From NCBI RefSeq assembly GCF_024749045.1, contig NZ_CP087184.1:4464001-4528000 (forward strand): a stretch of 64,000 nucleotides of DNA, given 5' to 3'. Positions 5,789 through 48,429 of this stretch are shown in pieces. Every line of letters starts with the position of its first letter. The first letter of the stretch is position 1. The position numbers were made by a program, and so were the translations under genes. The notes under the pieces are model-generated. The model saw nothing but the letters and a program-made list of their open reading frames with translations, had not been told where the DNA came from and did not search any database. The DNA comes from Pseudomonas sp. B21-028. GTDB taxonomy: Bacteria > Pseudomonadota > Gammaproteobacteria > Pseudomonadales > Pseudomonadaceae.

Positions 5789-6150
5789 TAACGCCTTCCT
5801 TGTTAAAAATTTGAATATCAATATTCGGCCAACTTATCTCGAATTGGCACTCGGAGTGCAACGCGGATCTGATTCTTTCGAACGGTTTTTTAGTCGTCTA
5901 ATCAAGATCAATGTGATCTATATTACGAGTGCTCTCGCAGCGTAGGCTGAATGCCAAACACTTCATGTAGGTTCATGACACCTCCCATGTGATGCTGCAT
6001 CCTATCGTCTGTCGGAATATAATGGCAAATGGACATATCCTCGAGTCCTACACCATACACACCCCGTAACACCGAGCCCTAATCCCAAGGCTACGTCACC
6101 TTGCGCCTTTGCCTACAACTAAGCCAGAATCCGCCCGCTTGTGTGCCCTG
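5789..6150. other. Intergenic region upstream of the split gene
   Basis: This is the boundary between AT-rich accessory DNA and the DUF6124 leader. It must hold the promoter of the minus-strand gene, with AT-rich stretches around 5880-5935, but no site can be called with confidence. Confidence 0.3.
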
Positions 6151-6152
6151 GG

Positions 6153-6220
6153 CCGTACCGGTAGCTTGGTTTCCGTCACTGCTCATCAGTGACCGGGTTT
6201 AGCGACCCGAATCGGTACGG
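6153..6220 (+). ncRNA. Structured leader, three-way junction A
   Basis: Closing stem CCGTACCG (6153-6160) pairs perfectly with CGGTACGG (6213-6220). Inside are a hairpin GTCACTG/CAGTGAC (6175-6181 with 6187-6193) and a hairpin CGGGT/ACCCG (6194-6198 with 6205-6209). It lies ~190 bp before the DUF6124 start, on the same strand. The complementary arms were checked base by base. Function is unknown; a cis-regulatory RNA or a mobile repeat are both possible. Confidence 0.5.
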
Positions 6221-6245
6221 TTGCATCAGCGCTCCTGATCTCATT

Positions 6246-6263
6246 GCAGATATTCCTATCTGC
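6246..6263 (+). ncRNA. Linker hairpin in the DUF6124 leader
   Basis: GCAGATA (6246-6252) and TATCTGC (6257-6263) form a perfect 7-bp stem with a TTCC loop. It sits between the two three-way junctions. Confidence 0.4.
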
Positions 6264-6275
6264 GACTGTTGTAAT

Positions 6276-6350
6276 GGTGGCTGTGCGCGGGAGACCTTCG
6301 GGTCTGCCGGGCTCCTGTACCCCCGGTTCGCTAACCTGCGTACAGCCGCC
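6276..6350 (+). ncRNA. Structured leader, three-way junction B
   Basis: Closing stem GGTGGCTGT (6276-6284) pairs with ACAGCCGCC (6342-6350), nine pairs with one G-U. It encloses AGACC-TTCG-GGTCT (6292-6305, a stable UUCG tetraloop) and CCGGG/CCCGG (6307-6311 with 6322-6326). The element ends 58 bp before the DUF6124 ATG. I recall closely similar sequence before related small genes in other P. fluorescens genomes, but cannot verify that here. Confidence 0.55.
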
Positions 6351-6408
6351 ACCCTAACTTGCTTAGCGACAAGCATGGTGTGGCTCAACCAGGTACAGGA
6401 GTTTCATC

Positions 6409-6768
6409 ATGTTCAAGGTCACACCCAATCCTCCGGATTCGGATCCCACCTCATCCTACTCAAGCCTCGATCCGGAGAAACTCCACGAAGCTACCGAGCG
6501 GGCACTCAATTTCTATTTGAAGCCCGAACAGGACAAACCCAAGAAAGATCCACCCCCGAGCCAGCTCTTCACCGTCATCGACGGCATCGACACTGAAAGC
6601 CTGCTCGCCAACCTCAGCGAAAACCTAGCCTCGGCCAACGCCATGATCAACGACCTGGCGTTCGACCTGGACGGATCACGCCGACATGTCGCGCTGGGCA
6701 TTCAGCAGGTGATCGAGCTGAGCGAGCTATTGGCAAACAGGGCGTTGGATAACGTCGATCCACGCTAG
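6409..6768 (+). CDS. DUF6124 family protein
   Basis: The 119-residue protein begins MFKVTPNPPDSDPTSSYSSL and ends with a helical segment around LLANLSENLASANAMINDL and ALDNVDPR. This is the layout of the DUF6124 proteins common in fluorescent pseudomonads, related to DUF3077. The family has no known function. No signal peptide or membrane segment is seen; the second half is predicted helical. ATG 6409 follows AGGAG (6397-6401). The gene is preceded by an elaborate structured leader and followed by a long hairpin at 6791-6834, so expression is probably controlled at RNA level; that last step is inference. Confidence 0.85.
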   Translation: MFKVTPNPPDSDPTSSYSSLDPEKLHEATERALNFYLKPEQDKPKKDPPPSQLFTVIDGIDTESLLANLSENLASANAMINDLAFDLDGSRRHVALGIQQVIELSELLANRALDNVDPR

Positions 6769-7179: not shown

Positions 7180-8004
7180 ATGAACCCACTCCACATCTTC
7201 AAACCCGGCACCCACACCGCCCAATGCGGTACCACCTACAACTTCACCGAAGCCGACCTAGCCGCCACCGTCGCCGCCTACAACCCAACCCTCCACGAAG
7301 CCCCCCTGGTCATCGGCCACCCGCAACACGATGCCCCAGCCGCCGGCTGGGTCAAATCCCTATCCGCCACCGCCCACGGCCTCATCGCCGAACCCCAGCA
7401 AATCGACGCCGCGTTCGCCGAGCAAATCGCCAAGGGCAGCTACAAAAAAATCTCCGCGTCCTTCTACCACCCAACCGCCGCCAACAACCCCGTGCCCGGC
7501 GTCTACTACCTACGCCACGTCGGCTTCCTCGGCGCCCAACCACCGGCCGTCAAAGGCCTTCGCCCCATCGAACTGGCCGAAGGCGAACCCGGCGTCATCG
7601 AGTTCAGCGAAAGCGACCCAAACACCACCGCATTAGAAGCAGAGAACCTCCGCCTAGAAGCCGAACTCACCCAACGCGACAACGCTGCCCGCATCGCCGC
7701 CCAACAAACCCTTCACGCCACCAGAGTCGCCTACGCTGAGCAACTGGTCGCCGCCGGCATGAAGCCACTGCACGCCCCCGTGTTCATCGCGGCGCTCGAC
7801 GCCGTGCAGTCCGGCACCACCCCTTTGGAGTTCGGCGAAGGCGACCAACGCCAGCCCCTAAGCGTCGGCCTCAAAACCCTCTTCAAGGACCTGACCCAAG
7901 CCGTCAGCTCCACCGAAGTCGCCACCAAGGCCCGCACCGGTCAGGCCGACGCCGCCACTGCCAACCCCTTGCTCGCCGACGCCGAAGCCCGTGCCCAACG
8001 ATAG
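7180..8004 (+). CDS. Phage capsid maturation protease / scaffold (Mu gpI-like)
   Basis: The product has 274 residues from ATG 7180. It resembles the Mu gpI-type prohead protease/scaffold proteins. The N-terminal ~130 residues contain HIFKPGTHTAQCG, a central GHPQHDAPAAGWVKSL segment and the SYKKISASFY segment typical of that family. The C-terminal part (about 150-205) is a charged coiled coil (EAENLRLEAELTQRD) that fits a scaffold domain. In intact phages such a protein cleaves itself and scaffold during head assembly. It directly precedes the decoration and major capsid genes, as expected. The longer frame from 6784 is disregarded because its added residues lack family character. Confidence 0.8.
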   Translation: MNPLHIFKPGTHTAQCGTTYNFTEADLAATVAAYNPTLHEAPLVIGHPQHDAPAAGWVKSLSATAHGLIAEPQQIDAAFAEQIAKGSYKKISASFYHPTAANNPVPGVYYLRHVGFLGAQPPAVKGLRPIELAEGEPGVIEFSESDPNTTALEAENLRLEAELTQRDNAARIAAQQTLHATRVAYAEQLVAAGMKPLHAPVFIAALDAVQSGTTPLEFGEGDQRQPLSVGLKTLFKDLTQAVSSTEVATKARTGQADAATANPLLADAEARAQR

Positions 8005-8012
8005 GAAACCCC

Positions 8013-8378
8013 ATGGCCACATTCACCCCACCCAAAGACCTTGGCGATTTACTGCTGATGCAAGTCAGTCCCGGCTGGACCAAAGACAAGGCCGTCCTAC
8101 TCGGCGGCACCGACTACCCCCTGGGGCAGGTACTCGCCAAGGTGGCCGGCAAATACCAGGCCCTCGACCTCAGCAGCACCGGCGCCAAAAAAGCCGCTGC
8201 CGTACTGGCCGAGCACGTCGACGCCAGAACCGGCGACAAGCCCGGCGTCGTCATCGCTCGCGGTGCGGTCCTCGCCCTGGCCGAATTGGTTTGGCCGGCC
8301 GGCATCACCGAGCCGCAGAAGACCGCGGCCCTCGCCGAACTCAACGCCCAAGGCATTGTCTCCCGCGCCACCCTTTAA
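8013..8378 (+). CDS. Phage head decoration protein
   Basis: The product has 121 residues, rich in Ala, Gly and Val. It resembles lambda gpD-type head decoration proteins (HDPD), which bind the outside of the expanded capsid as trimers and stabilise it. The position, 8 bp after the protease and 12 bp before the major capsid protein, is the canonical order. ATG 8013 follows GGAAACCCC, a usable ribosome binding site. The gene is intact in length. Confidence 0.8.
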   Translation: MATFTPPKDLGDLLLMQVSPGWTKDKAVLLGGTDYPLGQVLAKVAGKYQALDLSSTGAKKAAAVLAEHVDARTGDKPGVVIARGAVLALAELVWPAGITEPQKTAALAELNAQGIVSRATL

Positions 8379-8390
8379 CCGGAGCCCACC

Positions 8391-9359
8391 ATGAACCTGC
8401 AAGACCTGTTCAGCGTTGCCAACCTCACCGCCGCCGTGAACAAGCTCCCAGCCATCCCCGGCAAAGTCGGCGTCATGGGGCTGTTCGACGAGAAAGGCGT
8501 CACCAGCACCGCCGTCGTCATTGATGAGCGCGAAGGCCGCCTAGTGCTGGTGCCCAATACGTCCCGCAACGACGACCCGACGCCGCTCGAAGGCCGCAAA
8601 CGTAAACGTCGCACCTTCGAAACCCTGCACCTGCCGGTCAGCAGCTCAATCCTGCCCAGCCAATTGCAAGGCATCGCCGCGTTCGGCCAGGAAAGCGCCA
8701 CCGCGCCCGTCGTCACCGTCGTCAACGACCACCTGCAGGAGCTGAAAAACAGCGTCGAAGCCATCCGCGAATTCCAGCGCGTTGGCGCATTGCGCGGCCA
8801 ACTGCTGGATGCCGACGGCTCGGTGTTGTTCGACCTGTTTGATGAATTCGACGTCAAGCAGAAGAGGGTCACCGTGCCCCTCAGCAAGCCCGAGACCAAC
8901 GTGCGCAAAGCCTGCCTCGACGCCAAACGCCACGCAGAATCCGAACTAGGCGGCGTGATGGTCACCGGCTTTCGTGCCTTGTGTGGGCCAGACTGGTTTG
9001 ACGCGCTCACCGACCACGCCAAGGTCAAAGAAGCGTTCGCCCATTATCAAGCGGCCCAAGATCGTCTCGGCGGTGACCTGCGTTCGGGCTTCACCTTTGG
9101 CGGCATCGAATACGTCGAGTACGACGTCACCGTCAGCGGCCAGCGCTTCATCCCGGCCGACGTCGCCCAGGTCTTCCCGGTCGCCCGCGGCGTGTTCCGT
9201 TTGTTCAACGCCCCGGCCAACTACAACGAAACCGTCAACACCCTGGGCCAACCGTTCTACAGCAAGGCCGAGCCACGCAAGATGGGCAAAGGCTGGGACC
9301 TGGAAGCCCAGGCCAACCCTTTGGCCATGTGTTTGTTCCCGAAGCCCTCGTTGAACTGA
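8391..9359 (+). CDS. Phage major capsid protein E
   Basis: The 322-residue product matches the major capsid protein E (HK97-fold) family: N-terminal arm with DLFSVANLTAAVNKLP, a basic loop GRKRKRRTFETLHLP, a central YVEYDV strand region and a C-terminal FLFPKPSL-like end (CLFPKPSLN). It forms the icosahedral head. It appears full length and follows AACCGGAG. The protease-decoration-capsid trio is intact, but portal and terminase upstream and the neck and tail genes downstream are absent. Confidence 0.87.
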   Translation: MNLQDLFSVANLTAAVNKLPAIPGKVGVMGLFDEKGVTSTAVVIDEREGRLVLVPNTSRNDDPTPLEGRKRKRRTFETLHLPVSSSILPSQLQGIAAFGQESATAPVVTVVNDHLQELKNSVEAIREFQRVGALRGQLLDADGSVLFDLFDEFDVKQKRVTVPLSKPETNVRKACLDAKRHAESELGGVMVTGFRALCGPDWFDALTDHAKVKEAFAHYQAAQDRLGGDLRSGFTFGGIEYVEYDVTVSGQRFIPADVAQVFPVARGVFRLFNAPANYNETVNTLGQPFYSKAEPRKMGKGWDLEAQANPLAMCLFPKPSLN

Positions 9360-9615: not shown

Positions 9616-9810
9616 TTATTTACATTTTGCAGCCATAAACTCGCCAGATTTCGACGAGCGGATCACATCCTTCTGCTCATCAATGGCCGCACGAGCCGCC
9701 ATATGATAAATCTCTCGCCTTTCTTCCGCGGACCCGTGGCGGAAAAATTCAGACATTGTCGACGAACCATGAGGCTTCGTCGAAGCGCCTGCTGCCTTTT
9801 CGCCTTTCAT
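9616..9810 (-). CDS. Small protein paired with zeta toxin
   Basis: The 64-residue product starts inside the end of the toxin gene (4-bp ATGA overlap at 9807-9810), so the two are translationally coupled. The C-terminal half, SEFFRHGSAEERREIYHMAA, is charged and helical. A small partner overlapping a zeta kinase is a plausible antitoxin, although in the classic epsilon-zeta and PezAT loci the antitoxin gene comes first. The antitoxin role is inference from position and size; I cannot name a family. Confidence 0.55.
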   Translation of the reverse strand: MKGEKAAGASTKPHGSSTMSEFFRHGSAEERREIYHMAARAAIDEQKDVIRSSKSGEFMAAKCK

Positions 9811-10538
9811 GGGAATACTCCGTTCAAAATACGTTCAAGCTCGTTGGGATCATAGGGCTGGTTGATAAACCCGTCAATTTCGTCAGCTGAAAGGTCAATG
9901 CCAATATCGCCGTTCGCGCCATCGTTGTCCTTGATGATCACATCCACCTGCAACGCATCCTGAAACTCACGCTTGAGAGTACAGACAGAGACCTTTGCAG
10001 CATAGAATTGTCTGACAAACTCAGGGCAAGGAATATTCCTTCCGTCTTTCCTTTCTCTCGCGAGAACAAACTCCCAGGCAAGCTCAGGACGCTGGTAGAC
10101 GTAGATTACTTGGGCAGACCTGTTCTCTTTATCAAGGGCCCGCGAGATATTTCGGCGCGCCACTTCGAGATTCGCAAGAGTCCCATCCAGCAGGAACGAT
10201 TGACGTTGCTGGTAAACCAAATCCAGGGTTCGCTCAACAATGGTCGTTACCCCGCGCTGGAAAAGACTGGAGTTTCGCCCCGTGTACTCAAGAAAATAAA
10301 CTCTAAAATCATCAGGATCGATCCGTAACGCCTTCGATCCACCGGCTTGCATCATTCCAATAAACGCCCGGGACACCTCAGTTTTCCCTGCGCCCGGCGA
10401 CCCAGCCATGAACACAGAGACTGGGTACTCATCGCTCGGATAGGTCTCCAAACAGGCCAGATCCCGGGCGATACGGGTTCGGTTTTGCTTTGCAAATACC
10501 GCAGCACGCTCAGAAATGGCTTGCTCTTCCTGCGTCAT
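9807..10538 (-). CDS. Zeta toxin family kinase
   Basis: This 243-residue protein has the zeta/PezT core. Walker A GSPGAGKT lies at residues 46-53; RIDPDDFR follows at 72-79, with the Asp and Arg expected to bind the sugar-nucleotide substrate; FLLDGTLAN lies at about 115-123. Zeta toxins phosphorylate UDP-N-acetylglucosamine at the 3' hydroxyl and block peptidoglycan synthesis. The key residues look present, so the enzyme may be active. It is transcribed with the overlapping 64-residue gene and ends at a strong terminator. It lies among phage debris, suggesting a maintenance or anti-phage cargo gene. Confidence 0.85.
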   Translation of the reverse strand: MTQEEQAISERAAVFAKQNRTRIARDLACLETYPSDEYPVSVFMAGSPGAGKTEVSRAFIGMMQAGGSKALRIDPDDFRVYFLEYTGRNSSLFQRGVTTIVERTLDLVYQQRQSFLLDGTLANLEVARRNISRALDKENRSAQVIYVYQRPELAWEFVLARERKDGRNIPCPEFVRQFYAAKVSVCTLKREFQDALQVDVIIKDNDGANGDIGIDLSADEIDGFINQPYDPNELERILNGVFP

Positions 10539-44728: not shown

Positions 44729-45181
44729 TCAGTTCTGCAGCGCGGGTTGCTGCTGCGCACCGTTGATCGGGATGCGCTTGGCTTTCGCCTCTTCCGGAAC
44801 CACCCGCAACAGGTCGATACTCAACAGACCGTTGCTCAGGCCGGCGGACTTGATCTCAATATGATCCGCCAAGCGGAAGGACAGCTTGAATGCACGCTGG
44901 GCGATGCCCTGATGCAGGTAGGTCACGCTGTCGTTGCTGGCCTCACGCTTGCCACCGCTGATGGTCAGCACACCTTTTTCCACCTGCAGGTCCAGGTCTT
45001 CTTCCCGGAAGCCAGCGGCGGCGACTACGATACGGTATTCATCATCACCGTATTTTTCCACGTTGTAGGGTGGATAGCTGCTGCCCGGTTCGTTGCGCAG
45101 GGCGGTTTCGAACAGGTCGTTGAAACGGTCGAAGCCCACCGAGGAACGGAACAGAGGGGCCAGCGAAAATGCAGTACTCAT
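44729..45181 (-). CDS. ibpA: Hsp20/IbpA small heat-shock protein
   Basis: 150 residues with the alpha-crystallin domain at about 35-125: start MSTAFSLAPLFRSSVGFDRF, YPPYNVEKYGDDEYRIVVAA, VEKGVLTISGGKR and YLHQGIAQRAFKLSFRL are typical of IbpA/HspH. Such proteins hold unfolding proteins for refolding. Its leader carries a sigma32-type promoter and a ROSE-like thermometer, so expression should rise sharply on heating. Confidence 0.92.
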   Translation of the reverse strand: MSTAFSLAPLFRSSVGFDRFNDLFETALRNEPGSSYPPYNVEKYGDDEYRIVVAAAGFREEDLDLQVEKGVLTISGGKREASNDSVTYLHQGIAQRAFKLSFRLADHIEIKSAGLSNGLLSIDLLRVVPEEAKAKRIPINGAQQQPALQN

Positions 45182-45190
45182 GATTCAAAT

Positions 45191-45245
45191 CTCCTGAAAA
45201 GTTCAGCAAGGTTTTTTGTCTCCGCGACCCGAATTCGGCATCGCG
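45191..45245 (-). promoter_or_regulatory. ROSE-type RNA thermometer in the hsp20 leader
   Basis: In the RNA, CUUGCUGAA (45210-45202) pairs with UUCAGGAG (45198-45191), with one bulged G, masking the Shine-Dalgarno AGGAG nine bases before AUG. This UUGCU/AGGA arrangement with a bulged G is the hallmark of ROSE elements. A second stem CGCGA/UCGCG (45245-45223) with inner CCGAATTCGG lies just upstream. Confidence 0.8.
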
Positions 45246-45253
45246 TACCCCTT

Positions 45254-48320: not shown

Positions 48321-48402
48321 TTCCGCAAGCAGAATCTCGATCCGCTGGTCGGCAGTCTATTTTTCGAGGATAGGAGAATTGGCTGAACGCCAGACAAACA
48401 AA

Positions 48403-48429
48403 AGGGCCATTCAAGAATTGAATGACCCT
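48403..48429 (-). terminator. Terminator of the tRNA-Glu/Ala cluster
   Basis: Minus strand AGGGTCATTCAA and TTGAATGGCCCT form a 12-bp stem with a three-base loop, followed by a T-rich stretch. Confidence 0.8.

Follow-up and report, generated by a model that had tools for sequence, protein, structure and literature searches.

A C4-type antisense RNA before a DUF6124 gene in Pseudomonas: probable re-use of a phage P1-like silencing cassette in many chromosomal copies

Introduction

The closest described counterpart of the locus reported here is the c4-icd-ant operon of phage P1 (AF234172; RF01695), in which the elements follow one another in the order a1-b1-C4-a2-b2-gene and b2 lies over the start region of the gene. 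The mature C4 RNA of P1 occupies 48343-48419 (the C4 model matches 48337-48422), the -10 box of the P1c4 promoter lies 32 nt before a1, and a second promoter lies about 40 bp upstream of the C4 promoter. The P1 basis for transcription, processing and repression is also treated in the accessible parts of PMC5320573 and PMC12197685. The a1 and b1 targets of C4 antisense RNA form a motif of their own, c4-a1b1 (RF03163), which is listed in the accessible part of PMC2864571.

Related RNAs have been described in two other bacteria. The Group 1 sRNAs of Acinetobacter baumannii comprise many C4-like RNAs on a single chromosome, with variable a' and b' segments (PMC5320573, accessible part). The IsrK leader RNA of the Salmonella prophage Gifsy-1 pairs with a downstream structured region and activates translation, raising that of the downstream operon about 140-fold in trans; this operon encodes an antirepressor-like protein, and the term 'C4 antisense' is absent from PMC4825925, which describes it.

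The Pseudomonas locus studied here shares with P1 the order of elements, the C4 fold, the position of b2 over the start region and the promoter geometry. It differs in that P1 carries icd and ant behind a single copy, whereas here the gene is DUF6124 and the cassette is chromosomal, with about 35 copies and many codes within one genome. The Acinetobacter RNAs have no bacterial target gene named in the accessible part of PMC5320573, whereas here a cognate target adjoins nearly every copy. The isrK family (RF01394) matches the leader of our locus weakly (6175-6272, 23.1 bits, below the cut-off of 50), and we do not assign the leader to it. The C4 RNA family and its a1/b1 motif have been published, as have the multi-copy C4 RNAs of Acinetobacter; in the literature searched, which included few subscription papers, we found no report of a C4 expansion in Pseudomonas, of a linkage to DUF6124 or of per-copy cognate codes, and no mention of DUF6124.

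Results

A structured leader before a small gene

The window analysed is a stretch of 64,000 nucleotides from the chromosome of Pseudomonas sp. B21-028 (NZ_CP087184.1, positions 4,464,001 to 4,528,000 of the forward strand). Its region 6153-6350 is a structured RNA leader, which most likely controls the small gene behind it. An earlier note on this DNA had drawn two cloverlike three-way junctions joined by a 7-bp linker hairpin, and all of these are present in the minimum-energy fold of 6140-6425 (-126.5 kcal/mol). This fold has z -5.00, and none of 200 dinucleotide shuffles was as good. Folded alone, the second clover reaches z -5.58 and the first z -3.42 (0 of 200 shuffles each), and the linker stretch 6226-6268 reaches z -2.31 (5 of 200). 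The UUCG loop ascribed to the second clover lies at 6297-6300, and the gene behind the leader is indeed a DUF6124 gene. The features of the locus, all on the forward strand, are as follows.

6101 to 6138, forward: upstream block TTGCGCC...CAGAAT..., common to many copies by eye
6139 to 6167, forward: putative promoter, with -35 TTGTGT (6139-6144), a 17-nt spacer and -10 TAGCTT (6162-6167)
6175 to 6193, forward: first hairpin of the a1b1 leader, from the fold and the c4-a1b1 model match at 6173-6213
6194 to 6209, forward: second hairpin of the a1b1 leader, with a1 TTAGCGA at 6199-6205, complementary to a' over 7 of 7 nt
6214 to 6220, forward: b1 GGTACGG, a weak site (5-nt Watson-Crick run against b', 7 nt with G-U)
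6244 to 6265, forward: linker hairpin between leader and C4, from the fold; varies in other copies
6270 to 6356, forward: C4 antisense RNA (Rfam RF01695, 82.6 bits, cut-off 45)
6312 to 6321, forward: b', a 10-nt loop, CTCCTGTACC, unpaired in the free fold
6328 to 6334, forward: a', a 7-nt junction, TCGCTAA, unpaired in the free fold
6363 to 6369, forward: a2 target TTAGCGA, the complement of a' over 7 of 7 nt
6392 to 6401, forward: b2 target GGTACAGGAG, a perfect 10-nt complement of b' that holds the Shine-Dalgarno sequence AGGAG (6397-6401)
6409 to 6768, forward: DUF6124 gene, 119 aa, the putative silenced gene (PF19619, 107 bits)

The similar outline of the two clovers had suggested duplication of an RNA element. 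We found no direct repeat in 5900-6500, and the clovers match two different Rfam models (C4, and c4-a1b1 below its cut-off), so they are not copies of each other. Duplication of one element is therefore rejected; the two parts are a target and an antisense RNA.

The second clover as a C4 antisense RNA

By its Rfam match the second clover is a C4 antisense RNA. Its architecture agrees, with a long closing stem, a tetraloop hairpin, b' in the loop of the second hairpin and a' unpaired; in the free minimum-energy fold, computed with no model, the loop 6312-6321 and the junction 6328-6334 are the unpaired parts by the second hairpin. The covariation that the earlier note had proposed to look for is present in the closing stem, where 13 of the 17 pairs show compensatory double changes among 104 distinct sequences. 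By analogy with P1, the mature RNA is expected at about 6276-6353, and a GG(T) stands at 6276, the expected 5' end.

The targets before the downstream gene complement this RNA in full, a' with a2 over 7 of 7 nt and b' with b2 over 10 of 10 nt, and the AGGAG within b2 lies seven bases 5' of the DUF6124 ATG (6409). As a positive control, our script recovered all four annotated target sites of P1.

The DUF6124 protein has no match in PHROGs, PADLOC or NCBIfam. Its AlphaFold model (alignment of 50 sequences; mean pLDDT 78.9) contains a confident helical hairpin, and Foldseek returned 0 matches in the PDB at E<=0.001. Directly after the gene follow phage head genes (7180-9359; head maturation protease, decoration protein and major capsid protein), which places the cassette beside or in a prophage region; the operon is thus not of the P1 type with icd and an antirepressor gene. 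Elsewhere in the window there are a zeta-toxin family gene (9807-10538, reverse strand; PF06414, 165 bits) with a 64-aa open frame directly behind it (9616-9810, reverse strand), perhaps a toxin pair, and a match to the ROSE_3 RNA thermometer (45176-45247, reverse strand; 68.6 bits).

The upstream leader and its promoter

Like the c4-a1b1 motif, the window leader consists of two hairpins directly upstream of C4, with a1 in the second; it differs in scoring 36.6 bits at 6173-6213 (model positions 12-53, E 1.2e-7), below the cut-off of 46.7. Judged from its sequence, the leader would work like an a1 target, and it is not filed as a member of c4-a1b1.

The putative promoter was sought in other copies as TTG, 16-18 nt and xAxxxx, ending 4-10 nt before the first hairpin. 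Of 77 copies, 44 could be anchored (the other 33 were not counted); 35 of these 44 show the arrangement, compared with 1.8% of shuffled upstream sequences, and the spacer is 17 nt in 32 of the 35. From the -10 box to a1 there are 32 nt both in the window (6167 to 6199) and in P1 (48223 to 48255).

This promoter bears on the first clover. Its closing stem (6153-6160/6213-6220) stands in the minimum-energy fold, and its 3' arm doubles as b1; as RNA the stem is doubtful, since its 5' arm lies in the promoter spacer. Pairing between spacer and own b1 region, followed in 50 of 77 copies that could be anchored for this comparison, was weak and mixed (z 1.1 and 2.2 for Watson-Crick pairs, 2.3 and 3.3 with G-U), and by eye a pairing at this place is kept in the relatives L160 and L170 and not in L165. 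The stem could nevertheless arise if transcription starts at a promoter farther upstream. P1 has its second promoter about 40 bp upstream. The block 6101-6138 stands at a comparable position and might serve as a further promoter or as a site for a regulator, which makes a longer transcript including the 5' arm possible.

The linker hairpin varies among copies. Of 106 copies, 63 carry a 45-nt linker with z below -1, and in 30 z is below -2 (mononucleotide shuffles). In three copies of the window's genome (5253880, 1307017 and 1551634) a different upstream block precedes the same promoter place and contains an inverted repeat of the type TTCCGAC...GTCGGAA, so cassettes may fall into two regulatory classes.

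Copy number and gene linkage

The window's genome (G000; 6.49 Mb, one contig) holds 36 C4 matches, 35 of them above the cut-off, together with 31 c4-a1b1 matches (17 above the cut-off) and 29 DUF6124 matches. Within 600 nt downstream on the same strand, DUF6124 stands behind 27 of the 36 C4 matches and DUF3077 behind 2. Counted from the other side, 27 of the 29 DUF6124 matches lie behind a C4, the decayed copies 741736 and 3097680 included, and 30 of the 31 a1b1 matches lie beside one. The two DUF6124 matches lacking a C4 match are 587291, where a 3' piece of C4 can be seen by eye with no Rfam match, and 2185959, where there is none. At the 587291 locus two TwoAYGGAY RNA matches flank the gene (2424-2488 and 3318-3381 of L044).

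Similarity among copies spans roughly 0.7-1 kb. The earlier suggestion of a mobile structured repeat applies in a loose sense, in that a cassette of about that size (leader, RNA and gene) is dispersed in many copies. A search for an empty site, made with the gene beside copy 846103, found nothing in 75 other genomes beyond a 27-nt match in one of them. At one site shared by L024, L171, L181, L185 and L189, two cassettes are present in four genomes and one in L189; since the number differs at a shared site, cassettes are gained or lost.

Across 40 genomes of the genus, with the window's own among them, C4 matches number between 0 and 42 (median 14; 20 or more in 17 genomes); 36 genomes have any match and 35 at least one above the cut-off. 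DUF6124 reaches up to 43 matches in one genome. Over the 40 genomes the C4 count follows the sum of DUF6124 and DUF3077 matches (Spearman 0.91), a sum that is approximate because the families may match some of the same genes, and the four genomes lacking C4 have neither family. In another species (L051) the first frame behind C4 is a 52-aa open frame with no Pfam match (1640-1795), and a DUF3077 match follows about 500 bp downstream of C4, a layout like that of icd before ant.

Per-copy codes

To compare codes, we read a' and b' from fixed C4 positions and scored their longest Watson-Crick run against a copy's own targets and those of others, the targets being the region before the downstream gene and the upstream leader. 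Three sets were used: 35 copies of the window's genome (one partial C4 dropped), 42 copies of a second genome, G018, and the 29 best-scoring loci, one per genome (G018 included; two are nearly identical). Own targets scored higher than others on average in every test of all three sets (0 of 10,000 permutations each, which preserve column make-up and not the kinship of copies).

The run of b' against the Shine-Dalgarno region averaged 7.51 nt for own and 4.77 nt for other targets in the 35 copies, 7.48 and 4.87 nt in the 42, and 8.24 and 4.94 nt in the 29 loci. The own Shine-Dalgarno region was best or tied in 25/35, 32/42 and 22/29 cases, the own upstream region in only 13/35, 14/42 and 12/29. 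Runs of 7 nt or longer at both segments occur in 24 of 35 own pairs of G000 and in 31 of 42 of G018; among cross pairs the counts are 5 of 1190 and 5 of 1722, respectively. The b' segments are nearly all distinct (33 in the 35 copies of G000, 42 in the 42 of G018). The match of codes to their own targets is thus well supported.

Insulation between copies by duplex energy is weak. RNAduplex gave 17.60 kcal/mol for b' with its own downstream region and 13.12 for others, with the own pair best in its row in only 3 of 35 cases; for a' with its own a2 region it was best in 0 of 35, the mean being reached by 3 of 5000 permutations. Because own pairs are so rarely the best by energy, cross-talk between copies is possible. 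Nor did we see code avoidance beyond chance, as about as many cross matches occur as independence would give (5 against 4.8 and 5 against 5.4).

Coordinated code changes

In alignments of three sites shared with other species, the codes of C4 and of its targets change together. At the site of copy 17699, L191 and G000 are identical over 331 of 339 positions of the coding part and 359 of 379 of the right flank, and b' reads CTTCTTCGGTTCCC in L191 and CAATGCTGGAATCC in G000, while b2 reads GGGAACCGAAGA and GGATTCCAGC, respectively. On the proximal left G000 differs from all three relatives (257-258 of 340-346 identical), and farther out 96-98% is common. The code of L187 and L200 equals that of 17699.

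At the site of 1150848, L212 (P. mediterranea; left flank 409/445) has a different a', which a1 and a2 follow, and a b' changed from TTAGCTC to TTAACTT, which b1 and b2 follow. L211 (96% over 3362 bp) has the same code as the 1150848 copy, and so do L208, L209 and L213, which share less of the flanks or share them at lower identity. The third site is that of 3947396, where L215 is 86% identical on the right over 1769 bp, with near flanks of 247/331 and 198/268. In L215 one A-U pair between b' and b2 has turned into G-C, and a G-U pair has likewise become G-C.

Relatives of the window copy, which may not be orthologues, include L165 and one L166 copy, which keep the perfect 10-nt b'/b2 match, and L160 and L170, in which no more than 6 nt pair without interruption. 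When near-identical pairs are pooled, identity is 0.52 for b1, 0.71 for b' and 0.77 for b2, compared with 0.86 for the coding part and 0.79-0.83 for the remaining leader; these are 13 hand-picked pairs, in some of which the gene start is misplaced, and a faster change of the b segments is suggestive only. A wider count of code switches (71 of 136 differing pairs at sites with shared flanks) was discarded, as tandem cassettes make many of them spurious.

C4 outside the genus

In the class, 18 of 274 genomes have C4; the 17 besides the window's own have at least 1 to 6 copies each, at most 15 candidates per genome having been scored. In one other genus of the order, 10 genomes have 0-2 copies. 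At 18 C4 loci outside the genus (17 genomes), a downstream run of 7 nt or more is available to b' within 100 nt at 15 loci and to a' within 60 nt at 16, both counts being without a permutation control. Three of four downstream proteins scanned there match AntA/AntB (L078), Rha (L081) and BRO (L090), and the fourth (L075) has no match. A phage origin with later expansion in Pseudomonas would fit.

The DUF6124 protein of the window matched 1 of 50,697 phage records and none of 72,556 plasmid records (tblastn, E<=1e-5). An alignment search returned 70 loci in IMG/VR viral contigs (L238-L307), which may be phage or host DNA; many of them lie near a contig end, a position that would suit provirus borders.

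Discussion

The locus is very probably a silencing cassette built on a C4-type antisense RNA, as in phage P1, that has been put to use on a DUF6124 gene and multiplied over the chromosome. By the P1 model, one promoter (6139-6167) would give rise to the a1/b1 leader, C4 and the mRNA, and C4 would be cut out of this transcript by RNase P. Pairing of a' with a2 and of b' with b2 would then hide the Shine-Dalgarno sequence, leaving DUF6124 untranslated. The upstream a1/b1 would compete for the same C4 segments and, as a decoy or folding partner, most likely adjust or relieve silencing; such a decoy or refolding role is plausible since the Gifsy-1 leader, whose isrK family weakly overlaps the window leader, activates translation. 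An a/b code particular to the copy and matching its own targets is present in most chromosomal copies, and RNA and targets change together.

A bolder extension is that a phage immunity RNA was domesticated in Pseudomonas chromosomes and gave rise to dozens of antisense addresses, largely insulated from one another, each of which serves one member of DUF6124/DUF3077, and that selection against cross-silencing, as in plasmid incompatibility, drives the coordinated switching. We hold this only tentatively, because insulation is weak by energy and codes show no avoidance beyond chance.

Somewhat less probable is a system akin to type I toxin-antitoxin pairs, compatible with a silencing cassette, in which C4 would be the antitoxin RNA, DUF6124 the toxin and addiction the reason why the cassettes persist. 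An antisense RNA over the Shine-Dalgarno sequence of a small gene, many copies with decayed ones among them (741736, 3097680), and the annotation of the P1 gene at the same place, icd, as an inhibitor of cell division would all suit it, but DUF6124 has no toxin or defence family match (the structure search being uninformative) and 587291 keeps the gene with half a C4, so that loss of C4 is tolerated there if the gene is expressed.

Considerably less likely is that the C4 set acts in trans as a collection of immunity codes directed at phages whose antirepressor genes are under C4 control, DUF6124 being secondary. An idea of similar kind was raised for Acinetobacter (PMC5320573, accessible part), the codes are diverse, and in other genera three of the four scanned downstream proteins are phage regulators; against this, in the window's genome a DUF6124 or DUF3077 gene directly follows 29 of the 36 C4 matches, and the codes fit the start of that very gene.

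Hardly credible is a riboswitch-like leader that binds a ligand, or a structured repeat and nothing more, which the earlier note had proposed from strong folding before a gene and to which the many dispersed copies might also point, since the variable parts of C4 match the ribosome-binding site of the gene exactly in antisense and change with it, unlike a fixed ligand pocket, and the copies come with promoter and gene.

If the domesticated set of insulated addresses did exist, it would be a natural, self-diversifying set of orthogonal RNA regulators. The P1-like silencing cassette itself matters in that C4 is otherwise known as a single-copy phage switch, or in Acinetobacter a multi-copy RNA with no target named in the accessible part of PMC5320573. 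Here a genome can offer dozens of copies whose likely targets are legible in the DNA itself, which makes specificity, cross-talk and the co-change of regulator and target directly testable, and the cassettes offer a first handle on the DUF6124 family.
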